From positions 186,001 to 250,000 of the forward strand of contig VDMD01000041.1 of assembly GCA_007026445.1 (NCBI GenBank): DNA of 64,000 nt. The letters run 5' to 3'. The position numbers were made by a program, and so were the translations under genes. How positions within the stretch are numbered: position 1 is the stretch's first letter; each line of letters starts with the position of its first letter. Under the pieces are notes generated by a model, which made no database searches, had not been told where the DNA came from, and was given only the letters and a program-made list of their open reading frames with translations. This stretch comes from Schizophyllum amplum. Taxonomy: Eukaryota > Basidiomycota > Agaricomycetes > Agaricales > Schizophyllaceae. This document shows positions 1-55,362 of the stretch, piece by piece.

Positions 1-903
1 GCACCAGCATATGGCTTTTGCTTGCCGCTCTTCTGGCTTGTCGCGGCCTACGATCCGCACGGCAAGCAGTGCGCCGCCTGAACGTTGCACGTACGTGTGG
101 AGAGCGATCTGCATCTGCTCCGTCTTCTTCTGCATTTGAGATATGTCCTGATCTTCGGATGAGTAGTACAACTCCCATTCCTCGGCAATAGCGATGCGGA
201 ATTCAGGGCACCACAGGGGTGGCGAGTCTAGAACAATAGCACGCCATCGCTGGCAGACCTGGCTGACGACGACGACGGGATAGCTTGGCTCTATCAAACT
301 GAATTCGACGTGAGCACAGACGTAGCCAAGGATCTGCATCAGAGTCTCCGTTGGCAGTCGTCGAGCGGGAGAAATAAGAGCTCGCTGCTGCGCTGAAAAA
401 GCGACGGCCTGCCGCTCGTACCCTTTGATCTCGGAGACAACCGCGCGGAGGCGAGTGATTTCTAACTTCAAGGCGCTGGCTGCTCGACTCGCGTCATCCG
501 CCTGAGTGGATATATGTTGGATCTCCGCTGGCGTTGTAACAATGTGTCCCGAACGTATATCGTCTAGAGTGGAAGCGGACGGCCTATAGATTGCAGCATG
601 GACCACCAGCTCTTGGAGGGATCCGGATGGCGCCTTTCCATCGTCTCTTTCCATCCGAGGAGGCGTGCGGATGTAGGACCGTTTACTGCTGTTACAATCA
701 GCTTTGAAAAACCCAAAGATACCCGAGAACGCACAGAAAAGTGGGACACGACGATCGTTCTGCACCTGAGGAGGGTACAGCCAAAGTTTCAGTTGGTCGC
801 TAAGAACAATGGGACCGGAGATTGAGCCGACTTCCGCCACGGGATATTCGGGCCGGACCCCTGAGGCTAGCGGAGCGCCATCGTTCCCCTTCCTCTCGAC
901 CAT
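1..903 (-). CDS. F-box-like domain protein, 5' part only (runs off left edge)
   Basis: One reading frame stays open from an ATG at 903 (or an in-frame ATG at 654) down to base 1, with no stop in the window. It translates to a helical/coiled stretch (ISTQADDASRAASALKLEI) and then an F-box-like core, RRLPTETLMQILGYV, followed by VVVVSQVCQRWRAIVLDSPP and LWCPEF. That order, a helix and then LPxEIL...VSxVCRxWRxIALxxPxLW, is the signature of the large Agaricomycete F-box-like families. Such proteins usually act as substrate adaptors of SCF ubiquitin ligases; the target here is unknown. A possible 37-nt intron (GTATCT...ACAGCAG, near 675-711) would change the N-terminus, so the start is uncertain. 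The C-terminal part, usually leucine-rich repeats, is outside the window. Confidence 0.7.
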   Translation of the reverse strand, partial: MVERKGNDGAPLASGVRPEYPVAEVGSISGPIVLSDQLKLWLYPPQVQNDRRVPLFCAFSGIFGFFKADCNSSKRSYIRTPPRMERDDGKAPSGSLQELVVHAAIYRPSASTLDDIRSGHIVTTPAEIQHISTQADDASRAASALKLEITRLRAVVSEIKGYERQAVAFSAQQRALISPARRLPTETLMQILGYVCAHVEFSLIEPSYPVVVVSQVCQRWRAIVLDSPPLWCPEFRIAIAEEWELYYSSEDQDISQMQKKTEQMQIALHTYVQRSGGALLAVRIVGRDKPEERQAKAICWC

Positions 904-1083
904 CTCCTCGTATCACAGTTACCAAGGGACACCGGCTGTCGCTCGTCCTAGCTACTGACGGCTGCTCCTCAAGGTAACTGGGCGCAGTCGCGCAGGCCCT
1001 GGAGCCGTCATCGCAAGGTCATAGATCGCACGGGAAACCGAATACGACAGAGCATCGCGTTAGGTTCCTTGTCTTACGCCGTC

Positions 1084-4000
1084 ATGATGGGAGAAAGCGA
1101 CCATCTCAACGAGCTCGAACCGCTCTTGAGCAGGTGCGTTGGACGATCCATTCGAGAGCATCAAACCTCATGCTTACTGCGTACCAACAGGGACGACATA
1201 GAAGTCACGCCGGTGTACCCCATCATACATATGATCAAGAACGTTAGTATGTTCTCTTTCGCGAAGTCTTCTATTAACACGATTCGCAGGATATGATTGT
1301 ATGTGAAGCTCTTCTCTTCTGTAGGGCTGACCTCATGTCGGACACCTACCATTAGCATTTCATCGGCGCGTATTGTCTATACTTGCTTGACTTTCCAGTA
1401 CTTATCGCCTTCCACCCACGCAGACACGCCCCTCACGTTCGAAGCTCTCACCGCGCCAGACCTCACCTATACCCTCATCCGACCTCTTCACGAGAAATAT
1501 GGCAGTTTACAACGTGCAGGCAACATGTCCGTCGTCTTCTGCCTCCTCCTCAACCGCGCACACTTCCGGAGCGACGAAAACATGTCCACGTCCCCCGTCA
1601 GTCGCACGCGTGCTGAGCTCTGCGAATTACTCGCTATCCGCTGCTTGCGCGACTACGGCGACAACACGCTTCGACTGGCGCATGTTGTGACGACCACCTG
1701 GCCCGTCTTCAATGGCGCCGACGAGGAGGTGCTGAGGCAGGCGCAGGAGGACCGGGATGACCTTGAAGAGCGAGTGGGGAACGCCATCGAAATGGCCATC
1801 GTAGGGAAAGCAAAGCGCTTCATCAAGAGCTCGCCATGCCAGAAGGTCATCAACGCTATCTGGAGGTGCGTACTGTGAAGTCGCTTTCAGATTTACGCTC
1901 ACAACACTGTTAGCGGGAAGTGCGTATACCAGGCCGAGAGTAGCCATTCCATATTGTCAGACGTGAGTTTCAAGCGAACTGTGCGGTGTCTTCCTGGCTG
2001 ACCACCTTACAGACGTACAAACGCACGCCCATACATTACTACGACCCTCACAAGGCGCCGTTACTTGATCATTATCGTCTCAAGGTTCCTTCGATCCGTG
2101 CAGTCCTCGAATTTTGGAAGTATGTGACCGGATGCGTGTCAAGTTCAATCGCTGACGATGCCTTTAGCTTCGTCCTCCTCTTCATCCTCTTTGTGGTGGC
2201 AATAGAATTCTCAGAGCGCGACAATGTCAACGCGGCTGAAACGATATTTATGGTGTACGCCCTCGGATTCAGCTTGGAAAAGTTCGCCGCTATGCAAGAG
2301 CACGGCATCAGAGGTGCATTACTTCAGTGACTGCCCACTCCGGTCCATGCTGAACCTGCGCGCAGTATACACGAAAGGAACATGGGTACGTCTCGGCGTT
2401 TCTGCATTGGCGTGATCATAACCGACCTAAATTATAGAATGGATTCGACATGGCCTTGGGTTCGCTTCGCTTGTGTATGCTTTTTTGAAGGCCGAGAACT
2501 GAGCTGCGTCGATTAGTGACGACGTATCTCGTCTATCTGTTTCTGCGCGTCTACGGCGCGGTGCACCCTAGTAAGCGCCTGTCCCTCTAACAAACCACTC
2601 GCCCTTTTTATGTTGGCCCTTCTTTAACAAGTCAGCAGGCAAATGGGCACGCTCGCTAGGCATAGATCTTCTGGCTCTCATTGCTTGTTTGCTTTTTCCG
2701 AGGTGCGTTGACCAGTGAGAGGGCGAACATGATGTGGTGCAAGGCTGACGATGACCTAGACTGGCCTTTGTGACGCTGAAGGACAATTTGATGGTCCTGG
2801 CTTTGCGGGCGATGATGATGCAGTTCTTGGTCCTGATGCTGATCGCGGCGTTTTGCTTCTGCGGGTTCTTGTATGCGTTGTGGACGTGCGTATGAGCCAC
2901 CTACGGACCACTCCGGTGATACTGAAGTATACACGTAGGTTGAGTCGCAACGAGCCATGGCCGTATAGCGCAAGGTGAGCGAGATATAAGGCTGCCCTGC
3001 CGGCTTTCGCTGACAGAGGCATAGTACCATCGCATGGTGGATGCTTGATCTCTGGTTTGGGCTTGACGCCAGCGGGTTTGAGAAAGCCAGTCCGTCAGAT
3101 CACATTGCTATGCTGTGTGCGGCTCTGACGACACAAAACAGCCACTTTTCACCCTTACTTTGGTCCCGTTCTCATGGTTACCTACGCCTGCCTGAGTAAC
3201 ACGCTCTTGCTGACCGGTAAGCCCATCATTTCTACGATACAGTGATCGCGAACGCTGATCACATTGCAGTCCTTGTCTCTGTAAGTTCGTTCTCCCGAGG
3301 TTATTGTCGAGATGGCTCAAGTGTGGTGACTCAAGATCCTTTCGAATACGTTTGCGACTATCAGCGAGGATGCCGTGGCTGAGGTGTGCCCTTGAATCTA
3401 CGACTGATACATGTCACTGACCCTTGCGTAGGCCATGTTCCGGCGCGCCGTTTCCACTATCGAGGGGTGGGAGTTCATCATAAACTGTGAGCATGATGAT
3501 GCTAATCTGGTCACTTCAGAGTGAAGGCAGATTCACTATTCTCTTATCACCCTCCTATCAACCTCCTCGCGGTCTGCATTATGTTCCCGTTGAGCTTTAT
3601 CTTGACTCCGAGATGGTTCCACAAGGTGGGTGTGCCCTCTTCCTTTGTCGGACTGGCATACACTTAATACTGCATCGCAGGTGAACGTGTTCTGCATCCG
3701 GATCACTAGCTTTCCCATTTTACTTGGGATTGCGTTGTACGAAAGGCAAGCAAAGAAATATGGGACGACCTCGTTCTATGACACGCTGTCTGTGACGGCC
3801 GAGAAGATTTTCGATACTCTGCCAAGGCCAATAACCCGTTTGAGTGAGTACGACATCTATATCTGCACGACAAGACTAATATGACACCTCAGGCATCTTT
3901 GAGGGCTTTGCCGGTTATGGAGGGGACATCGCCGCGGTACTTGTATTCCTCGGATCTGCTCGCGTGAGATGCTGAAGCAATGGTGACTTCAAGATCTTTG

Positions 4001-4824
4001 AGATTGAAGACGAGCTCGGCGCTAGCGCTCTTGATACGCGCTCTGAAGGCGAGATCGAAAATGGTCAACCGCAATCGCCGTATGTAGGCTTGGTGCCACC
4101 GTCCCAACATCAGCGGCGGTTATCGACGTCGACGACTGCCACCAAACGCAGGCCATCGACGCCGCTACACTCGCCTATGACGACAACACCCATGCAACAA
4201 AATGCGCCCCCGCTGCGCGCAAGAGCGAACTCCATGATGAACCGCGGATTTGAGGCGGCGCAGAACTTCACGAGCCCGCTCGCGCAGATCTTTCAGCCCT
4301 TGGTTGTTGACGACGACCTACTGGAGGAGGAGGACAACGCGAGCGAGGTGTCGAGCCCGCCGCAGGCCACAGGTGTGAACTTTCCCTCGCCGCCGCAGGG
4401 CGTCAGCTACGGGCCGGCGAGTCGGCGGCGGCTGTCGTCGATGCACCGAAGGACAGAACCTGCGGTGCCCAGACGCTTCCCGGTCTTGGGTCGTGTGGTG
4501 AGCGGGGCCACCGGCGACGGCGTGCTATCAGAAAGCCCCGAGCAGGGCGGCGGGGTGCAGGGGTCGCCCAGCCAACGCGAAGTGTTGAGCGCGGGGGTGA
4601 GTCCGCGGAAGGCGTCGTCGATCGCGGCGAGCGCGTCGGAGGGGCCGTCGCCGTCGCCTGCACCGTCGGTGACGGCGCAGCAGGTGGTGGATACGCGTGC
4701 GGATACCGGAGCGGCGCCGGGGTGGGTGACGAGATTGGATAAGATGGAGGCGAGGCAGAGGCGGATTGAGGGTATGCTGCAGCAGCTGGTGCAAGCGGCG
4801 TCGAAGGGGCCTGCGTCTGAATAG
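1084..4824 (+). CDS. YVC1: YVC1-type TRP cation channel (vacuolar calcium-release channel)
   Basis: The spliced product matches the fungal YVC1/TRP family along its length. An N-terminal helical domain includes TPVYPIIHMIKN, LTAPDLTYTLIRPLHEKY and KAKRFIKSSPCQKVI. Several membrane segments follow: FVLLFILFVVAIEF, TTYLVYLFLRVYG, LLALIACLLFPRLAF, and a pore region with LDLWFGLDASGF and PVLMVTYACLSNTLLLT. The C-terminus has FEIEDELGASAL, a Ser/Pro-rich tail and a final coiled coil. Family members release Ca2+ from the vacuole. I traced about 22 exons with GT-AG borders, for example 1084-1133, 1191-1242, 1290-1298 (9 nt), 1399-1865, 1914-1962, 2013-2119, 2168-2313, 3270-3280 (11 nt) and a last exon from about 4014 to the stop at 4824. 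The intron before the exon near 3526 uses a CAGAG acceptor to keep frame and is less certain. Start chosen as the first ATG in frame with exon 2. Confidence 0.88.
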
Positions 4825-4944
4825 GCGGCGAGGCGCAGGCAGGTTGCTTTGTTTCGACGAGACCTAGGCTATTGTACGCGTAGTGACTCAGTGCATGACT
4901 GTCCAAGAATCATTGTCAATGTACGTGTCTTGCCCAGTGCCCAT

Positions 4945-5344
4945 TGACACCGGGGGCAAAGTCCAGCCCACTTCAATTTGAAGGGCGCTAAAGTCACTAT
5001 GTCACTCACCTACCGACTCACTATGTCACTCACTTCGCTCTTCCGGCGTAGTTTTGCCTCTCGCTGCAATAAAAATTGCCATTTTTGTGTGCCAGATCCT
5101 GTCTAGAGCACCCCTGTAGCTGTCCTGTACCATTGGAGGGCCTCACCGGGTGGCGCGAGGGGGAAAACAAGGTCGAGTTGTGCACTGTTGACACCGGGAT
5201 TCGAACGATCGACCTCCTAGAAGGTCGAATTTGGCGCCTCATTGCAAGGCTGGGAGGTGACTGACATGGTGAGTCGGTGAGTGAGTGACGTAGTGAGTCT
5301 AGCGCCCTTCATATCGAAGTGAGCTGGACTTCGCCCCCGGTGTG
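4945..5344. mobile_element. 400-bp MITE-like element with ~90-bp terminal inverted repeats
   Basis: The left end (TGACACCGGGGGCAAAGTCC) and the reverse complement of the right end (CACACCGGGGGCGAAGTCC) stay alignable for about 90 bases, including CACTTCRATWTGAAGGGCGCTA and a run of direct GTCACTCAC-type repeats. The 9-mer AGTGCCCAT flanks both sides (4936-4944 and 5345-5353), as expected for a 9-bp target site duplication, a size typical of Mutator-like elements. There is no transposase reading frame inside, so it would be non-autonomous. The interior on the minus strand has GTTCGAATCC (about 5195-5204), a perfect tRNA B-box, next to a GGTCG/CGACC hairpin, which suggests a degenerate tRNA-derived segment. 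Confidence 0.75.
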
Positions 5345-5654
5345 AGTGCCCATGACTCTTGCGAGGAAGTCCGCGCTCGGATCATGTATGCGCGTCTTCC
5401 GTACGTTCCGTATCAAAGGACCGCGCACACTCGATCACTGGACGGGTCAGCTCGCTTGGTTTCAATCGAAACAGCTGTGGTATCGGGCCAGCGACTTGAC
5501 TGTATATCTTCTGCTGATAACTTGACACAGGAGCTCGACTGATCAATGCATGGTTCCTCTTAGGATCTCGTGGCGGTCGTTGCAGACAGAATATGCCCAA
5601 AAATCAACTAAAAAATCAGGCATTAAAAGTTGAACATCACGTGAAATTCATCCG

Positions 5655-5760
5655 GTCCCGCCCCGCCCCTTACTTTTCTGCCTCCGTGTGACGCCCCGGT
5701 TCATGTGGACATGCGCACCCCAGATATTTATCGCCCCGGCCCCTTGTGCGGGGTTTGGAG
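5655..5760 (+). promoter_or_regulatory. Cluster of Cre1/CreA-type motifs upstream of the pentitol dehydrogenase
   Basis: Within about 105 bases, 130-235 bp upstream of the ATG at 5891, at least six matches to SYGGRG occur on either strand: two GCGGGG (from CCCCGCCCC at 5661), CCGGGG at about 5693 and 5733, CTGGGG at about 5717, and GCGGGG at about 5748. A TATA-like AGATATTTA lies at about 5722. SYGGRG is the established binding motif of the fungal carbon-catabolite repressor CreA/Cre1. The motif is short and the region is GC-rich, so binding is inferred. Confidence 0.45.
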
Positions 5761-5890
5761 ATTGTCCGGGCTAGAGGGGCCGCCGCTGCGTACATCGATA
5801 ACGCGCATCGTGTTCCCAAAGCCGAAGCCGCGCCGCTCGACACAAGTCCTCCATCCATCGCCCACCACTCAACCTACATAGCCGTCCGCA

Positions 5891-7370
5891 ATGGTCCTGA
5901 CCGCCAACCACGCGATCTACGATCCCGCCAAGGTTCTCAAGGACCCCAAGTTCCGCCTCGTCCCCATCGGCGAGAAGACGCCCAAGGACGCGAACATCGC
6001 GGCGTTCTACAACCCCCAGCACGAGGTGCACCTTGTCGAGAAACCCAAGCCAACACCGGGGCCCGGACAGGTGCTCATCCATGTGCGCGCCACCGGAATC
6101 TGCGGGTGCGTCCTGCGCGAAAATCACAGACTGCGAAGACCCGCGATCGCGCTCGACGATGGCCGGCTGACGGGACGCGTGCAGGAGCGACGTCCACTTC
6201 TGGAAGCATGGGGGCATCGGCGACATGATCGTGACCGACGAGTGCGGGTCGGGCCACGAGTCTGCGGGAGAGGTCATCGAGGTCGGCGAGGGGGTGACTG
6301 ACTTGAAGGTCGGCGATCGTGTCGCGCTCGAGGTTGGCATTCCGTGCTCGCAGCCGGGGTGCGAAGCATGCCGTACGGGGAAGTACAATGCCTGCCCGGA
6401 TGTGGTGAGTTCTGTTGTGTTGTTCTCGTGCGGCGCGAGACTCATTTGAGCGGTAGATCTTCTGCTCTACGCCGCCCTACCATGGTGAGTGGGTTTTGAG
6501 GTCGTAATGACGACGACACCGACAAGCACAGGCACCTTGACCCGCTTCCACGTCCACCCCGCACAATGGTGCCACAAGCTACCGATGAACGTGTCGTATG
6601 AAGAGGGCGCGCTCTGCGAACCGCTCGCCGTCGTCACCGGCGCAGTCGAGAAGGCCGGGCTCGCACTCGGTGACGCTGTCCTCATCACGTATGCCTGACG
6701 GGCCCTCATGCTTGAATTCCACGCTAACTCCTCGCCAGCGGCGCCGGCCCCATCGGTCTAGTCGCTCTCCTTTGCGCTCGCGCGGGAGGCGCCGAGCCCC
6801 TCGTCATCACCGACCTCTTCCAAAGCCGATTGGACTTCGCCAAGAAGCTCGTGCCGAACGCGCGCACGATCCTCATCGACCCAGCAGATACGCCGAAGCA
6901 GAACGCTGCGCGCGTGCGGGAGGCGGCGGGCATGCCGATCAAGTTGACGATGGAGTGCACGGGCGTGGAGAGCAGCATCCACACGGCGATCTACGCGAGC
7001 AAGTTTGGCGGGAAGGTCTTCATCATCGGTGTCGGCCGGGCTGAGCAGAACGTGAGTCCAGCTTCGTAGCGAGAAGGATGGGAATTAACCAGTACACCAG
7101 TTCCCCTTCATGCACTTGAGTGCGAACGAGATTGAGCTGGGCTTCTTGTACCGGTATGCAAACCAGGTATGGATGTTGGTTCTGCTTCACGCAATACTTA
7201 GTTGACGCGTTGTGCAGTACCCGAAGGCCATCCGCCTGGTCGCTGGAGGCATCATTGACCTTCGTCCGCTTGTGACGCATCGTTTTGCGCTCGAAGACGC
7301 AATTGACGCGTTCCAAACGGCCGCGGACCCTACGCAAGGTGCGATCAAGGTGCAGATACGGGACGAGTGA
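5891..7370 (+). CDS. LAD1: L-arabinitol 4-dehydrogenase / xylitol (sorbitol) dehydrogenase, zinc MDR family
   Basis: Seven exons (5891-6105, 6185-6404, 6457-6484, 6532-6688, 6739-7051, 7101-7166, 7218-7370) give 383 residues, the normal length for fungal pentitol dehydrogenases. Catalytic zinc ligands are visible in [14 protein letters not shown] and in GHESAGEV. The structural zinc cysteines are in [14 protein letters not shown]. The Rossmann motif is [17 protein letters not shown], followed by VITD, whose Asp fits NAD+ rather than NADP+. These enzymes oxidise L-arabinitol to L-xylulose or xylitol to D-xylulose in pentose catabolism in the cytosol. Which of the two is preferred cannot be told by eye. 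Exon 3 is only 28 nt. The gene converges on PET117, and a GH10 xylanase lies about 17 kb away. Confidence 0.93.
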
Positions 7371-12321: not shown

Positions 12322-15300
12322 ATGGCGCCAAAGCAGAAACAAAAGAGCCTTATGGCCTTTGGCTTCGCCCCTCCTAAGAAGGCAGCCAAGGACGACTCTT
12401 CCGACGTCGACATGGCAGACGCGCCGCGCGCCGCCCCGAAGAAGAGGATAGCGAAAAACAGTGGCCCCACGTCGAAGGTGAAGGCGAGGCCGAAGCCGAA
12501 GCCGAAGAAAGCGGCTCCTGAGCCGGAGCCGTCTGACGACGAAACCAAGAACGCGGGTTCTGACGAGGAGGAGGCGGCTCAGTCAGACGACGACTTCCGA
12601 CCGGCGCAAGACTCTGACGAAGAAGAGGAAGACGCGGACCAGGTGGAGGACGAAGCCGTATCCGATGCCGACGAGGGCGCAGATGACGAAGAAGCGGATG
12701 ACGAGGGCGCGGACGACGAGGACATCGTCCCGGAGCCAGCAGCGAAGAAGGCTAAAGGGGCGAAGGGAGTCAAGAAGGATAGAGATATCGCCAACCTCCC
12801 TCCTATTCACGAGATTACCGACATCTTCTCTGATCTCGTGCGTCGCGCACCGGCTCTCGAAGCATTCGCAAAACACATCTCCGGCCGCAAGCTGCGCGTC
12901 GCCACTATGTGTTCGGGCACAGAGTCACCATTGCTAGCACTGGACCTCGCCAAGACATACATCAAGGAACACTACGACGTCGAGCTGGAAGTCGAACACG
13001 TCTTCTCATGCGAAATTGAGCCCTTCAAGCAGGGCTATATCGAGCGCAACTTCATGCCCGCTCTTCTCTTCCGGGACGTCTGTGAGCTCGGCGACGATGA
13101 AGCGTGCGTGTTTTATCGGGGTTTTCCCGAATGGTACTGATATTGCTGCAGTCATACCGCCTTCGGGTCCCTTTGCCCCGTGCCCGGCGATGTTGACCTC
13201 CTTGTGGCTGGCACGTCTTGCGTCGACTTCTCCAACCTGAACAACCAAAAACAGGACATCGACGGTGCAGGTGAATCGGCACGCACCTTTCGCGGCATGA
13301 TGGCTTGGATACAGAACCACCGTCCGCCCATTGTCGTCATGGAGAATGTCTGCACTGCGCCTTGGGAAGAGGTCAAGGCCTATTTCGAGCAGAAAGGCTA
13401 CAGCGCGACGTTCAAGCGTTTCGACACCAAGCACCACTATATTCCCCACACTCGCGTGCGTGGCTATCTCGTCGCGGTCGACCAGAAGAAGTCCGACATC
13501 CCCGCGCAATGGCTGCAGTCCGTGGCCGACCTTCAGCGGCATGCTTCCTCGCCCATCGACGCGTTCCTTCTTCCATCCGACGACCCTCGCATATATCAAT
13601 CACGCCAGAAGCTTGTCCAAGAGGCGTACAATGCGCCAGAGAAGAAGTCATCCTCACGGACGGACTGGGGCCGTTGTGAATCGCGTCATGCTCGCGCCAG
13701 ACTCGAGGAGAAGCTCGGGAACAAGCGCCCCATGACGAACTGGGAGAATGGTATGGCTCCTGCTTATCTTACGCTTCAGCATATCTGATGTTGCCATCAA
13801 GGTGGTACATGCAAGCTCCCCGAATATGCTTGGAACGACTGGGGAGCAGCCCAAGTCGAGCGTGTATGGGACTTGATGGACATTACCTTGCTGCGAATGG
13901 CCAAGAACAACGTCGACCCGAGCTATAAGACGTGAGTCTATATCTCTTGCAACTCATAGCGCTTGCTCATTCTCGCAGGCATGTATGGAATCTGTCCCAG
14001 AACGTGGACCGCACCACGGGCAGCAATGCGGTGGGTATATGCCCTTGTCTCACGCCGAACATGATCGCGTACATCACCAATCGTGGAGGCCCACTAGTGG
14101 GTAGGGAGGCTTTGTCGCTGCAGGGTCTGCCTGTCGACAAGCTGCTTCTCACGCGTGAAAGCGAAGACCAACTGGCCGACCTTGCCGGCAACGCAATGTC
14201 GTCGACTGTCGTAGGAACGTGCATCATCGCAGCCCTCACACGTGGCATGAAGCTCTTGAAGGCCGGCGATGCGACTCAGTCATACGAGAAGCAGAAAGAC
14301 CTCGTGGACGAAGACGACGAGGATACTGCCGCGCAAGAAGTAGCAAAGGATCTGGCCACTCGCTCCGAGGACCACATCGTCGGCGACGACAACCTGGTGT
14401 TCCGCACACTTGATCTCTCACCCACGCAGGCGATTGCCCTCCCCGAGTTGCTCTCCTTGGCTGAACGCAGCCGCCGCCTTTGTGTATGTGAAGGCAGGGT
14501 TGACCGGACCACTAGCCCCATTTTACAATGCGCGGACTGCCAGACTACTATTTGCGCACGTTGCAGCCGCGTCGGGGAGCACCGCGACCTCACTACGTTG
14601 GACTTCACGTCGGAACCGCGACTCTCTCCCGTAGAGCAAGCCCGGATGCTGAAGGCGTCGCTTCCGATGTGTATCCGGGTGTCCGGCGTCAGCGCTGACT
14701 CTCTCGACTCCCTTCGGCCCCAGGACGGTGTTGGTATGACCGACGAGATCTGGGACAAGTGGCGAGACGCCGTTCTTCGCGCAACTTCGTCGGACATTCA
14801 CTTCGTCGAGGTGAAGCGCCAGGAGATTTGGAGTGCCGTCTATGCCTCGCCAGGTGCCACTCTGGAGCTACTCATACAGCAGGGACGGCCGGAGTGGAGA
14901 CTCTACGCCAAGGCTGAACCTGAGGAGCTCAGCCAATCCGAGATACGCCGGGTCCTGTCGACAGCCGTCGGTCGCCAGAGCTGTGCCACTGACGACCTTA
15001 TGTCAGGCCGCTTCGAATTTGCGCTCCCTAATCACCGCGAGTTCACCATACGCATTGTAGCGTCCGGAGAGAAAGTCCCTTCCTGGCGCAACCGCCTCGG
15101 ACTGGAGGACTATAAGGAGGACTTCGTTTACTCCCACCTAACTATCAGTGTCTCTGACGAAGATCGCGCTTTCCTTGACTGCGATATCTCCGGCGTATAT
15201 GACTTGTACGACAAGTGCGGCACGGCGAATGGAGCGCTTCACAAGAGGCGCAGCGACGACCCTGCTGCGCCGCCGCTGTACATGCTGTACGACCCGGACC

Positions 15301-48781: not shown

Positions 48782-49648
48782 AGCTGATCGAAGAGATGGT
48801 ATGATCAGAGCTAGCAAAGAGGATGCGCGCTAGCGAGAGAGACAACACCGAGGACGGAGGAAGGAGGGGAGGGGGATGGGGTCCACGAGAAGGGAGGGAG
48901 ACTCACTTCGCCGCACTTGCGCCCTACATATAGGCGCCTGCCCTGAGGCCCAGCAGCTTATCGTTGAATGAAGATTGGAGACCCGCGGAGGATGATCGCC
49001 ATCGCCAGATGATACAATTCACAGTGAAGCGCATGGTGCAGCCGTGATGCGAGCGCCTGAGCGGAAACAGTGACTCTGCGAGTCGAGAGTTCGTCCGTTG
49101 AGCTTTAGAGCGCGTTCCGTAGACGAGTAGGTAGCATTGCCAGGAGGGAAAGTTCGTCACAAGCAGCGTAAAAGTCAAGAGCCGCACCGAGACCGCAAAG
49201 TGAGCCGTAAACTGAATGCAACGCGCTATAGGCGCCTACCAAAGGGAGGTAAGCAGCGAAACGACAATGCGCTGCATAGCCACAAGATAGGCACCAGATG
49301 ATCCGTCGGCAGACGCCCCGACGAACATAAAACTTGCCTGTTGAAGGATTATCTTCGCGGCTCTACAAGGTATACCTTTTCGGGAGGAAGACTTCTTCAT
49401 TGTCAGCAGTCAAGCGTCCCAGAGGCCAAAGCCTGTCAGGACACCGCAGAAAAGTGGTAGCAAGAACTTACTTACACATTACTCAAGTCCGAACTTCCGC
49501 CATTTTATCTCGAGTTGCGAGCTTGATCCATCCGCTCGCCTCAGCGGAGGACCTCGGCCAACCAGCGACGGCTATACTTTCCCGCACGGGCGCGAACCCG
49601 CTTACTGCGGCAAGAGCTTGAGCAGATAACTACGCAGCACGCTGAGGG
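48782..49648. other. Intergenic region upstream of the MFS transporter
   Basis: About 870 bp. It contains only short frames. At about 49585 the minus strand shows GGGTTCGCGCCC, which resembles a tRNA B-box but lacks the invariant A58. Confidence 0.35.
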
Positions 49649-50767
49649 TAGTCTGCAATCAAACGCCAGCGGTTTCTGAGGTGAGGGGTATTGTTGCCAT
49701 CAGGTCAAAGCGGATGTCAAAGCGCTGAAGGCCCGCGGCGGACCGGCGCACGCGACGGCTCTGCGCGCTCGACTCTGTTGTTTGCTGTCCAATTTCTGCT
49801 GTCTCCTGTTCATCCACACCCGTCCAATGGAATCATCTCATCGCCGATCCAGCCATTGAGAAAAACAAAGGTATCTACACGAATATTTAGGACTATCTGT
49901 CCCAATATACAGTAGATATAATGGGGTTTCCTCTTTTTGCGCCTATCCTGAGGTCCCTGGCACGAACGCTGCTGTGCAGTGTGCCTCACCGGCACCCTTC
50001 CCAGGTATTGCGTCGCTCCGCCGCTAAATGTGATTGCATTCCTATGATTTTGAATGGAGGACCGCGATACGGCGCCGCCAACAAACGGGCACAAAGATAT
50101 TGGCTTCCAAAGTTGCACCTTGCTTGGTCTGTCTTCGGAAAGCAGGCGGTCAGCAGATAGATCTTATGTCAACATGCAACAAAACTTGCAGAGCAATGCC
50201 GTCGCTACAAGGGTTAGTATCACAGCAGACACGAATATGGCTGTGAGCTGGCCATGTATTCATTCCCTTGACCTATTACAAAGTCACAACGGCCTCGTTG
50301 CGTCCATGGGGGAGCTCAAGTCCCACTGTATCACGTTGACCAGCTTGCAGGGACGTGCAGTACGTTGAACAGCGACAAGGGGGCGGAAGAGGGGCGGACA
50401 AGGACGCGTCTAAATTACGCGCGGTACAAGCGAGTGTCAAAGCGTCGAGCCTCACGTGATGAAAAACCGGCCGACATGCCAGACGCCCGCATTTGATTAG
50501 TCTCCCGTAGGCAGACGTTCCGCAAGGAACGTCTGCTATCAAATGCGGGCGTCTACGGTAAGCCGGAGCTGCACGGCAAAAATCGCGTTTGACCGGCCGT
50601 GATGGCAAGATCAAGGGATCGAATCCGCGTGCGCGCAGACTTTTGAAAGTACTTTCCTTGGCTTTTTCTGGCCCGGACAGCCCCAAGTGCCCTCCATGCA
50701 GCCCCTAATTGACGGTAAAAGGTTGAAATTCGCTGAGATAGGCTCAGAAACGTCGAATCCGAGGTCG
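49649..50767 (+). repeat. Left arm of the foldback element
   Basis: Inverted counterpart of 51212-52330, identical by eye. It contains an internal hairpin (50481-50554): AGACGCCCGCATTTGAT and its complement enclose a 40-base module with the inner palindrome GCAGACGTTCC-GCAA-GGAACGTCTGC. Confidence 0.88.
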
Positions 50768-51211
50768 GAAGAGGTCTCGGCAAGTGCCGAAACAGCGTGC
50801 CCTGCGGCGGATGCCGATAAGTCACGCGATACGATGTTGAAGTTACTATAGTTAGTCGCAACCACGAGTAGCATACTTTTGCAGAGGCGCGTGTGGCTGC
50901 GCACTTCTCATAACTTTTGACTTTACTTACGGGACTAGCACGCATTAATGCTTGTATCTGGGCTACAGAGACGGCTCTAAATAGATATCGACTTCAATCT
51001 ACCATGTAGACCCATCCGAGGCCTTACTGCTATACATTGTAGCTCAAGCTCTTCAGTAAGTAATTCAAACAGATACTAGTGCCCTCAAGGATGTTCTATG
51101 CTAAGAAGAGACCACTTCGCGTGTCCAACAAGGCAGGATTGCTACCGTGGGAAACACCTTCCTCAGAGATCAGCAAGCCCACGTCGTCTCGGCGTTTGCC
51201 GAGATTTCCTT

Positions 51212-52330
51212 CGACCTCGGATTCGACGTTTCTGAGCCTATCTCAGCGAATTTCAACCTTTTACCGTCAATTAGGGGCTGCATGGAGGGCACTTGGGGCT
51301 GTCCGGGCCAGAAAAAGCCAAGGAAAGTACTTTCAAAAGTCTGCGCGCACGCGGATTCGATCCCTTGATCTTGCCATCACGGCCGGTCAAACGCGATTTT
51401 TGCCGTGCAGCTCCGGCTTACCGTAGACGCCCGCATTTGATAGCAGACGTTCCTTGCGGAACGTCTGCCTACGGGAGACTAATCAAATGCGGGCGTCTGG
51501 CATGTCGGCCGGTTTTTCATCACGTGAGGCTCGACGCTTTGACACTCGCTTGTACCGCGCGTAATTTAGACGCGTCCTTGTCCGCCCCTCTTCCGCCCCC
51601 TTGTCGCTGTTCAACGTACTGCACGTCCCTGCAAGCTGGTCAACGTGATACAGTGGGACTTGAGCTCCCCCATGGACGCAACGAGGCCGTTGTGACTTTG
51701 TAATAGGTCAAGGGAATGAATACATGGCCAGCTCACAGCCATATTCGTGTCTGCTGTGATACTAACCCTTGTAGCGACGGCATTGCTCTGCAAGTTTTGT
51801 TGCATGTTGACATAAGATCTATCTGCTGACCGCCTGCTTTCCGAAGACAGACCAAGCAAGGTGCAACTTTGGAAGCCAATATCTTTGTGCCCGTTTGTTG
51901 GCGGCGCCGTATCGCGGTCCTCCATTCAAAATCATAGGAATGCAATCACATTTAGCGGCGGAGCGACGCAATACCTGGGAAGGGTGCCGGTGAGGCACAC
52001 TGCACAGCAGCGTTCGTGCCAGGGACCTCAGGATAGGCGCAAAAAGAGGAAACCCCATTATATCTACTGTATATTGGGACAGATAGTCCTAAATATTCGT
52101 GTAGATACCTTTGTTTTTCTCAATGGCTGGATCGGCGATGAGATGATTCCATTGGACGGGTGTGGATGAACAGGAGACAGCAGAAATTGGACAGCAAACA
52201 ACAGAGTCGAGCGCGCAGAGCCGTCGCGTGCGCCGGTCCGCCGCGGGCCTTCAGCGCTTTGACATCCGCTTTGACCTGATGGCAACAATACCCCTCACCT
52301 CAGAAACCGCTGGCGTTTGATTGCAGACTA
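51212..52330 (-). repeat. Right arm of the foldback element
   Basis: Inverted counterpart of 49649-50767. The internal hairpin is mirrored at 51425-51498. Divergence from the left arm begins at about 51211, where the spacer still shows weak similarity (CTCGGCAARYGCCGARAC), so the original palindrome may have been longer. Confidence 0.88.
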
Positions 52331-52379
52331 GCATTTGATAGCAGACGTTCCTTGCGGAACGTCTGCCTAAGGGAGACTA
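52331..52379 (-). repeat. Third copy of the 49-bp hairpin module, at the element's right end
   Basis: On the minus strand it reads TAGTCTCCCTTAGGCAGACG and onward, the same as the module at 50498-50546 except for one base (T for G). It contains the perfect 11-bp stem GCAGACGTTCC/GGAACGTCTGC. Confidence 0.85.
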
Positions 52380-52514
52380 CGCTGAGGGCAGGTTGGGGCA
52401 GCGAACTGCAGCGCATCGGTCAGACGGGACTTACAGATAATTACATACATCGCCTCCTCCGCTAGGGAGCCTCCTACGATTCCAAGCCGCAGTACAGTGT
52501 TCAGATATGCTGCC

Positions 52515-55362
52515 TACTCGAATGGTATAGGGATCTCGTCAACGTGCTTCGCCGCGAAATGTAGCGTCCAGCTCTTCAGCAGTCGTCTCGAGTTCACCTC
52601 GTCGCCCGTCAACCTACGCGCGACATCAGTAAGTTGCACTGCCCAACAAGAGAAGCAAAGTTACTCACCCAGGTGCCCCATACGTGAGCGGGGAGAGGTA
52701 CATGAACATCGAAATCAGCGCGAATGTCACTATGCCGAGGCCCACGACGCCCTTCGTGCCCAAATCCGCGTATTGCGATGGCCGCGCGCGCGTGTTCGGC
52801 CCACGCTCCGAGATAGGGTAGTTGATCGACTCCGAGAGGATGAAGCTGAACACAGAGCCCGCAACCATCGCCGACGCCAAGTGCGACGGGAGGTAGTGGT
52901 GGATGAACAGCTGGCGGCTCATCAGGAAGAAGGGGAAGTAGTGCACGGCCCAGAAGAGCAGGAAGAAGCCCGTGCTGTTCCATAGCCGGTTACGGACAGC
53001 TGGGATGAACGTCAGATGCGGGTTCAGACGGCAGAAAATCAGGACGCCTCACCGTCGGGAATGGGGTCAGCAGCGCGACGGCGCGCGAGAAGGTCGGCGC
53101 CGAGGATGCCGACGAAGATGGACAGGCCAACAACGCATATCCACCAACCGACGAGGTTGCCGATAAGGTAAATCTGCTTCTGGGACTCGCCCTCCGTCCA
53201 GAAGCTTATACCGCTAATGAGGAACGGCCAGTTGATCGGGCTGCTGGCGTAAGGGTGGGACTGGGTCAAGCCAGCGTTGTGCGCGAGCATCAAACCCTGC
53301 AGTTCCGCCCATTTCCTGATGAAGCTCATGCGCTTCGGCGCCTTGTCCTTCTTCTCGCCGATACGCTCGTATACATCTTGCTGAGCTGGGGCCGATGTAA
53401 GATATGCGGGTGATTGAAGCATAACGAGACTGTCGCTTACCGTCTCCATCGATGATCTGGTCGACATACCAAGTAGCAGACCTATCCGACGCCATCTTGT
53501 TGCCGTTCACCTCCTGCTGCTTGTACGCCCAATCGGGAAGATGGTTCGCGTACGTCCAGAGCGCAACCTTGGTTGCAGCATGCACGAGCTTGAAGTAGCC
53601 GGACTTGCTCTTCCAGGCCTCGCCATCGAATCCGTCGATGAGCTGGAGGTAGAACAGGGTGTCGTTGTAACGAGAGATATCGTCCTTCGAGACGGTGGTA
53701 AACTCTTGATTCGTGGGCATGAGGGGCGATGCGACGTCGTGCGTAAGAAGGAGTGTGTCGGTCTCGACATGGCGAAGTTGGATAAGGTCGTCGTTGCGCA
53801 CGATCCGGCCGCGGCCAGTCTCGGGAAGTGCCTTCGTAGGGATTATTTGCCAGTTGTTGTTGGTGTCGGCGTGTGCGTAGCCGGTGACCTGCTGCCCTGC
53901 GGATTTGTTACACACTGTTGAGCGGAATCAGCGGGGAGTGCAGCTTACCTTGACTGCTGATACGGCCATCATCGTAGCGCAACGGGTAGTGCGCGTCATG
54001 AGAGTGCAAGAAGACTTTCGTGTCCTTGTGCTTCATAGTGACCACGTCGTAATAACGTATCTCTAGAGTGCTTATCAGCAATGAGCTCTAACAGAAGATA
54101 GCAAGGGCTTACCTTGACTGTTCAATAGCAGTTCGTTGCCCACCAAGGTCTCCTGGAATGCTGGGCTCATGAACGTGTCGCCTGGACCGGTGTTACGGAG
54201 GACTTTGAAGTGGACCCAGAAAAATGACAGATAGATGATGAAAGGAATGAGGATAAAGCCCAACGCTCGCGCCGCAAAATGTCTCCAGAAATATTCCTTA
54301 AGAAGACGTGAGGGCCATTGTAGGCATGGAAAATTTAAGACGTACCATGGTGTGACCTTCCTTGCGCACGTCCAGGATGTCCCAAAGGTCAATAAGGACG
54401 GCAATGCCGACGCTCACTACGCAGAGAATGCCGTTGACCTTGGACCCCCACGCGCAGGCCATCATGACACCGGTGGATATCAGCCAGAACCACCACATTT
54501 GAGTGAACTCTCTGAAGGCAAATAAGCAGGGACAGGGGAGGGGGAGGGGGGCGGACGCACAGGTAGCGGTGCTTCATGAACTTGATGTAGCAATACATAG
54601 TGGCCGTAACAAAGAAGATGAGCGTCGCGTCGAGGAGAATAAGACGAGATTGCGCGATGTGAGCGTTGTCTGTACCGATTTAGCATGTGTAGATAGCGGA
54701 TATGTGCACGACGCACCAAAGCATATAAGAACAGCCGAGAAGGCAGCCGCCACTGTCGAATGTCCACATTCCTTCATGATCAAGTACACCAGAGGGACCG
54801 TAGCCGTGCCCAACAATGCCGGAAGCATGCGCATACCCACGTAGGGGACATTGTTGGCAATGTAGCTGTCCCCAATGTTTTCGAACTCGAAGCTGCCGTC
54901 GAAACCCACGAACCAGCCCGCTAATCCGAAGAGAAGCTTCGCAAAGGGAGGGTGCACATCGAAGTAATACGAGCGCTGGAGGTAGTACGCGGCGAACTTG
55001 CCAAAGTGGACTTCGTCGAACCTGGGCGACGCGTCAATATGGGGACGCGAGGCGCGTAGGATGGGACGCACACTACTTGGTCGGGATTGCCGATCTTGTA
55101 GAGGCGCAAGCAAAGGGTAACGATGGTTATGAGAGAGATAGCAATTATGCTAGACTGTTTTGTGTCCAGAAGCTGCTCAATCTGGCTGCGGCGTCTCTGG
55201 AAAAAGGGAGCTTGGTGAACAATGCGCGCGCGCGGGTTCGGTTGGATTGCGCACTGGGTTCTGGTACACGTCGTTGACGTGTTCGTCGTTCTGGACAAAG
55301 TCATATGGGACGTCTTCGCCCTCGTCGGGGATGCGCTGCCGCAGTTTGACTCGCTGAGCCAT
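52515..55362 (-). CDS. PMT4: Dolichyl-phosphate-mannose:protein O-mannosyltransferase, PMT4 subfamily
   Basis: Exon 1 encodes MAQRVKLRQRIPDEGEDVPYDFV. A 71-nt intron joins it to RRRSQIEQLL. The GT39 core has SLITIVTLCLRLYKIG, then FDEVHFGKFAAYYLQRSYYFDVHPPFAKLL (catalytic acidic loop), MKECGHSTVAAAFSA and CAWGSKVNGILCVVSVG. Then GDTFMSPAFQETL and MIR repeats (TKVFLHSHDAHYPLRYDD, QQVTGYAHADTNNNWQI, LRHVETDTLLLTHDVAS). C-terminal helices include FLLFWAVHYFPFFLMSRQLFIHHYLPS. The FMSPAFQETL and HSH...YPLRYDDGR features point to PMT4 rather than PMT1 or PMT2. It works in the ER, attaching mannose to Ser/Thr of membrane and wall proteins. Stop TAG at 52515-52517. Confidence 0.94.

Follow-up and report, generated by a model that had tools for sequence, protein, structure and literature searches.

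A giant palindrome in Schizophyllum amplum that very probably arose by head-to-head nesting of an AcademH-like transposon, a third element, and arm-to-arm copying

The maize double Ds of the Ac/Ds system (hAT) consists of a non-autonomous element inverted within an identical copy of itself. Here, we analyze a giant palindrome at 49649-52379 of a 64,000-nt stretch of the Schizophyllum amplum genome (the window, part of contig C246, to whose positions all coordinates refer), and we argue with high confidence that it is a nest produced by the head-to-head self-insertion of a transposon, the insertion of a third element, and arm-to-arm copying, and not a single foldback transposon. Like the maize double Ds, it holds one copy of an element (M_a) in opposite orientation inside another (M_b); unlike it, the ends of the nest are AcademH-like, its duplications are of 9 bp where those of the maize double Ds are of 8 bp, its palindrome is lengthened by the third element and by arm-to-arm copying, and breakage is here a prediction by analogy.

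For AcademH transposons, target-site duplications (TSDs) of 9 or 10 bp are given in PMC10045372, and putative nonautonomous Academ insertions are described as widespread in Marasmius oreades in PMC8290104; the terms "AcademH" and "nested" also occur together in PMC9970103 and PMC12210899. The coding relative of the nest, found on contig C1, resembles AcademH in combining a helicase, a second protein, and a 9-bp duplication, whereas the copies in the window are non-autonomous, nested, and mirrored. With regard to Galileo, a Foldback-like Drosophila element of the P superfamily, it has been proposed that the repair of one terminal inverted repeat (TIR) from the other extends the inverted repeats and yields a TIR1-F1-F1-TIR2 structure (PMC3573991). 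The window likewise points to inverted-repeat extension through repair with the other end as a template, except that the template would be the arm of an unrelated element lying within the transposon. Finally, plant Mutator-like elements (MULEs) with multiple TIRs carry extra internal ends, with no recognizable TSD at the internal TIR according to PMC3310237; the nest shares the additional internal ends but does have an internal TSD.

The arms of the palindrome, 49649-50767 and 51212-52330, are exact reverse complements over 1,119 bp with 0 differences, in agreement with the identity announced by the original prediction, and the mirror extends 32 bases further inward, up to 50799/51180, with 9 mismatches. 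Such mirroring by chance is out of the question. The whole is bounded by a direct 9-bp repeat, CGCTGAGGG, at 49640-49648 and 52380-52388 (both on the plus strand). The key to its structure is the asymmetry of its outer ends: the last 49 bp on the right (52331-52379) lack a counterpart at the left end, and find their equivalents inside each arm instead, at 50498-50546 and 51433-51481, with 98% identity. No coding role of the palindrome was found, and neither a tRNA nor an Rfam origin of the arms was detected, the window being devoid of any tRNA and the interval 49000-53000 of any Rfam match up to an E value of 0.1.

This asymmetry can be read as two copies of the same element, one inside the other. 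Removing 50498-52330 together with one copy of a second 9-bp sequence, GCATTTGAT, leaves a continuous 889-bp element, M_b, on the minus strand, of which positions 889 to 41 occupy 49649-50497 (its R end facing outward at 49649) and positions 40 to 1, the L end, occupy 52340-52379. Its termini are TAGTCTCCC.. and TAGTCTGCAATC..; its first 127 bp, in one stretch, match the C1 element's L end at 84% (131 columns) and that of a copy on contig C77 at 87%, and its last 108 bp are 94% identical to the R end of the C1 element. The removed segment, M_a (50498-52330, plus strand), itself begins with the L end TAGTCTCCC, finishes with the R end GCAGACTA, and is flanked by direct copies of GCATTTGAT at 50489-50497 and 52331-52339 (plus strand), which argues that a second copy, M_a, has entered M_b head-to-head within its L end. 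As in the maize arrangement, the same element thus lies inside itself, in opposite orientation and with its own TSD. Outside the first 40 positions, M_a and M_b are identical at 849/849 sites (49649-50497 against the reverse complement of 51482-52330, which holds positions 41 to 889 of M_a on the plus strand, R end last), and a single difference falls within these 40 positions. The L end of M_a (positions 1-56 at 50498-50553, plus strand), to which related L ends exist on C1, C77, and C253, contains a hairpin at 50511-50536 (GCAGACGTTCC-GCAA-GGAACGTCTGC) that lies some 13 bp from the terminus; one base of its 11-bp stem is changed in the C1, C77, and C253 copies. The insertion of 50498-51481 as one unit was also considered and rejected, its flanks GCATTTGAT and ATCAAATGC being inverted and not direct.

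The outer insertion is real and polymorphic between contigs of the assembly (49.65 Mb in 309 contigs): the left flank of the palindrome recurs on C171 and C255 with 99% identity, the right flank recurs there too, and on both contigs the flanks are joined at a single CGCTGAGGG without the palindrome, forming an exact empty site. These observations bear out the original prediction in its claim of a genuine insertion with a 9-bp target duplication, but not in its interpretation as a single foldback element, since the internal GCATTTGAT repeat around 50498-52330 and the end junctions point to three nested insertions at the locus. If the palindrome were instead a genuine foldback transposon (of Mutator-like or other affinity) that moves with its giant inverted repeats as one 2.7-kb unit, it would also leave an outer 9-bp TSD and empty sites, and as the outer ends are one R end and one L end, the same machinery could in principle move the whole nest. 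This explanation nonetheless appears improbable to us, for only one copy of the unit was seen among the assembly matches listed, its right end has 49 bp unmatched at its left end, a direct 9-bp repeat lies internally at transposon termini, and its ends are those of a helicase/DUF6589 element. As for the empty-site contigs themselves, both C171 and C255 have about 0.4 kb of inserted sequence absent from the window (C171:8799-9191, or 1799-2191 of locus L053, near window position 49346) and bordered by an imperfect match of 14 bp.

The empty sites also bear on the reality of the palindrome. Perfect arms are typical of assembly artefacts such as inverted chimeras of long reads, and redundant contigs were kept in the assembly for several regions. 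However, the mirror ends exactly at transposon termini, the outer TSD is matched by exact empty sites on C171 and C255, and the inner mismatches, common to other copies of the core described below, are old, so that an artefact is unlikely, and in our estimation extremely so. Several further regions of the assembly are present on two contigs each, which suggests an uncollapsed dikaryon, and the palindrome locus is represented on three (C246, C171, and C255). An allele carrying M_b without M_a was not found. Because the interior of M_a and M_b has no other match in the assembly among the matches listed, it is attractive to suppose that a sister copy of this locus was the source from which M_a jumped.

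At the center of the palindrome, in the L end of M_a, sits an 872-bp element of another family (50554-51425, hereafter the core), itself an inverted-repeat element with arms of roughly 220-240 bp. Two 871-bp relatives lie at different sites of C246, 98% identical to the core and identical to each other, with the 7-bp TSDs that this family makes (CGCCGAC and CCCGCGA); for the former, an empty site with a single CGCCGAC exists on C304. By contrast, the flanks of the window core, GGGCGTC and GACGCCC, are a mirror image and not a direct repeat. Where the right 7-bp duplication would be expected, one finds a mirrored copy of positions 1-56 of the L end of M_a (51426-51481, minus strand), and outward of the core the mirror runs on through the M_a L end and the M arms. 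Furthermore, the perfectly mirrored part of the core spans 214 bp in each arm; there, the window core differs by four substitutions from its two relatives as well as from the outgroup L022, and 4/4 of these private substitutions are present in both arms. This pattern indicates that one core arm, together with the flank outside it, was copied from the other arm after the private substitutions arose; a left-to-right direction would require the fewest steps. The nine mismatches deeper in the core (50768-50795) are common to the relatives and must thus be old, and just inside the perfect arms, in this old and diverged part, an extra base and a substitution, both absent from the relatives, mark the window core on its right side; they fall outside the 214 bp counted. 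The original prediction had attributed the identity of the arms to recent insertion, gene conversion, or both, a reading with which the identical arms and the mirrored private substitutions agree. Two other differences between the core arms, at alignment columns 43 and 199, were dropped as proof of conversion, since comparison with the outgroup L022 places these changes in the c1/c2 lineage.

The centering of the mirrored arms on the core, together with its missing TSD, could also speak for an inverted duplication of a single element, through a hairpin or a breakage-fusion event around the core and without a second M insertion, all the more so as the M interior was seen at this locus only (among the assembly matches listed) and as C255 likewise harbors a half core-like element between inverted flanks of 233 bp at 98% identity (L037 5491-6335), with about 25 extra bases on one side. 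We nevertheless hold it to be very improbable, given that it leaves unexplained both the direct GCATTTGAT repeat, which delimits 50498-52330 precisely where an L and an R terminus lie, and the L-end remnant at 52340-52379. The half element of C255 is besides weaker evidence as a case of mirrored flanks, and its locus abounds in other inverted repeats. Among these further inverted-repeat pairs are one of 173 bp and one of 90 bp, at 99% identity.

On the basis of nesting followed by copying, the locus could have been built in four steps. The 889-bp non-autonomous, AcademH-like M_b would have inserted and duplicated CGCTGAGGG, the empty sites showing an insertion either of M_b alone or of the finished nest. 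Its copy M_a then entered the L end of M_b head-to-head and duplicated GCATTTGAT, as the internal direct repeat and the termini show, an event that alone creates an 849-bp inverted repeat. In a third step, the 872-bp element of the 7-bp-duplication family presumably inserted in the L end of M_a. Finally, the core may have been broken on its right and repaired by inverted-repeat synthesis, that is, gene conversion, templated by the left arm of the core and its left flank, which would have replaced the right TSD of the core by a mirrored left flank and made the arms identical; of this last step, the homogenization of the core arms is what the mirrored private substitutions show, while the break and the direction are our reconstruction.

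To which family do these ends belong? The two ends of the palindrome differ from each other and correspond to those of a 6.65-kb transposon on C1. This transposon has its own 9-bp duplication, is the sole coding element found to share both ends, and encodes a DUF6589 protein together with a RecQ-like helicase; among proteins, its best match comes from Schizophyllum amplum, at 96% over the full query. The helicase belongs to superfamily II, as in AcademH (Helicase_C, 1e-11; DEAD, 1.4e-05 with 25.3 bits for a cut-off of 26; RecQ chains), and a modelled relative has a predicted transposase-like fold; both the structure model and the Pfam count rest on alignment A1, which comprises 28/34 proteins (P0006, P0018, P0027, P0030, P0033, and P0034 left out). 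The duplications fall within the 9-10-bp range of AcademH (CGCTGAGGG, GCATTTGAT, and AGTCCAAAG), with an empty site for CGCTGAGGG only and with the TSD of the coding element taken from one copy, that on C1. Being the ends of an element with a RecQ-like helicase and a DUF6589 protein, they fit an AcademH-like family, the DUF6589 protein being a candidate relative of the Academ transposase. If duplications of about 9 bp also suit the Mutator-like affinity first proposed for this locus, they are common to AcademH and not decisive, and a MULE transposase was not found on the coding element with these ends, which has the DUF6589 protein and the helicase. The MULE-domain pieces of the genome, at least six (on C157, C101, C301, C293, and C245), include none, among the matches listed, on contigs bearing these ends, such as C1 and C77; the locus is thus probably not Mutator-like. 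A degenerate end pattern had no genome match, but it misses the window's own ends and is hence uninformative.

A further copy of the C1 element, 99% identical over positions 130-6649 (6.5 kb), lies at C77:19656-37523; its left flank differs from that of C1 and shows no matching TSD, and we excluded it from the TSD evidence. Near its L end, some 11.2 kb of sequence interrupt this copy; they have CACCTGGGTGACCC as termini and are accompanied by an 8-bp duplication, TATGATCG. More broadly, 19 DUF6589 pieces were counted in the genome (on C299, C7, C79, C273, C223, C46, C245, and others), which form a family of presumptive transposases that is diverse.

Two minus-strand genes flank the nest, one of MFS type (32.9 bits, slightly short of the Pfam cut-off of 33.4) and one for a protein O-mannosyltransferase, represented by its C-terminal part. 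If transcription of the latter ran on beyond the gene, the palindrome would be transcribed too, into RNAs predicted to form hairpins. The genome contains 21 Piwi/Argonaute, 4 Dicer-dimer, and 12 C5-methylase domain pieces, which makes hairpin-RNA silencing from the palindrome possible as far as gene content goes. One of the C5 DNA methylase pieces lies in the window itself (13183-13647, or C246:199183-199647; 41.7 bits), with another on C19, and is perhaps the DNMT5 mentioned in the original prediction.

Giant palindromes are unstable and potential seeds of silencing, and their origin is seldom readable. Here, the locus preserves the scars of each step, namely a 9-bp duplication nested within another, a 7-bp duplication now lost, and mirrored private mutations, with an empty site within the same assembly. 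It is a real and well-preserved example of the way in which transposon nesting and arm-to-arm copying can give rise to a giant palindrome. Its parts are of known kinds, and their combination in an AcademH-like family looks new within a limited literature search. Of the four places where the core family was seen, two (the window and the C255 half element) have mirrored flanks and two have ordinary 7-bp TSDs. We tentatively speculate, as a rather doubtful extension, that inverted-repeat elements like the core might be seeds that palindromize any flank via inverted-repeat-templated repair, the resulting nests becoming both double-Ds breakage sites and hairpin-RNA loci that would feed Argonaute/Dicer silencing of AcademH elements. 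As five transposon ends lie in unusual orientation within 2.7 kb, the nest is predicted, in the presence of the helicase/DUF6589 machinery, to act like the maize double Ds through aberrant excision and breakage, which makes chromosome breakage at this site plausible by analogy. Overall, the nest would give AcademH, so far little studied, a counterpart of the double-Ds arrangement, and it links the Pfam family DUF6589, whose function is unknown, to a transposon that bears a helicase.
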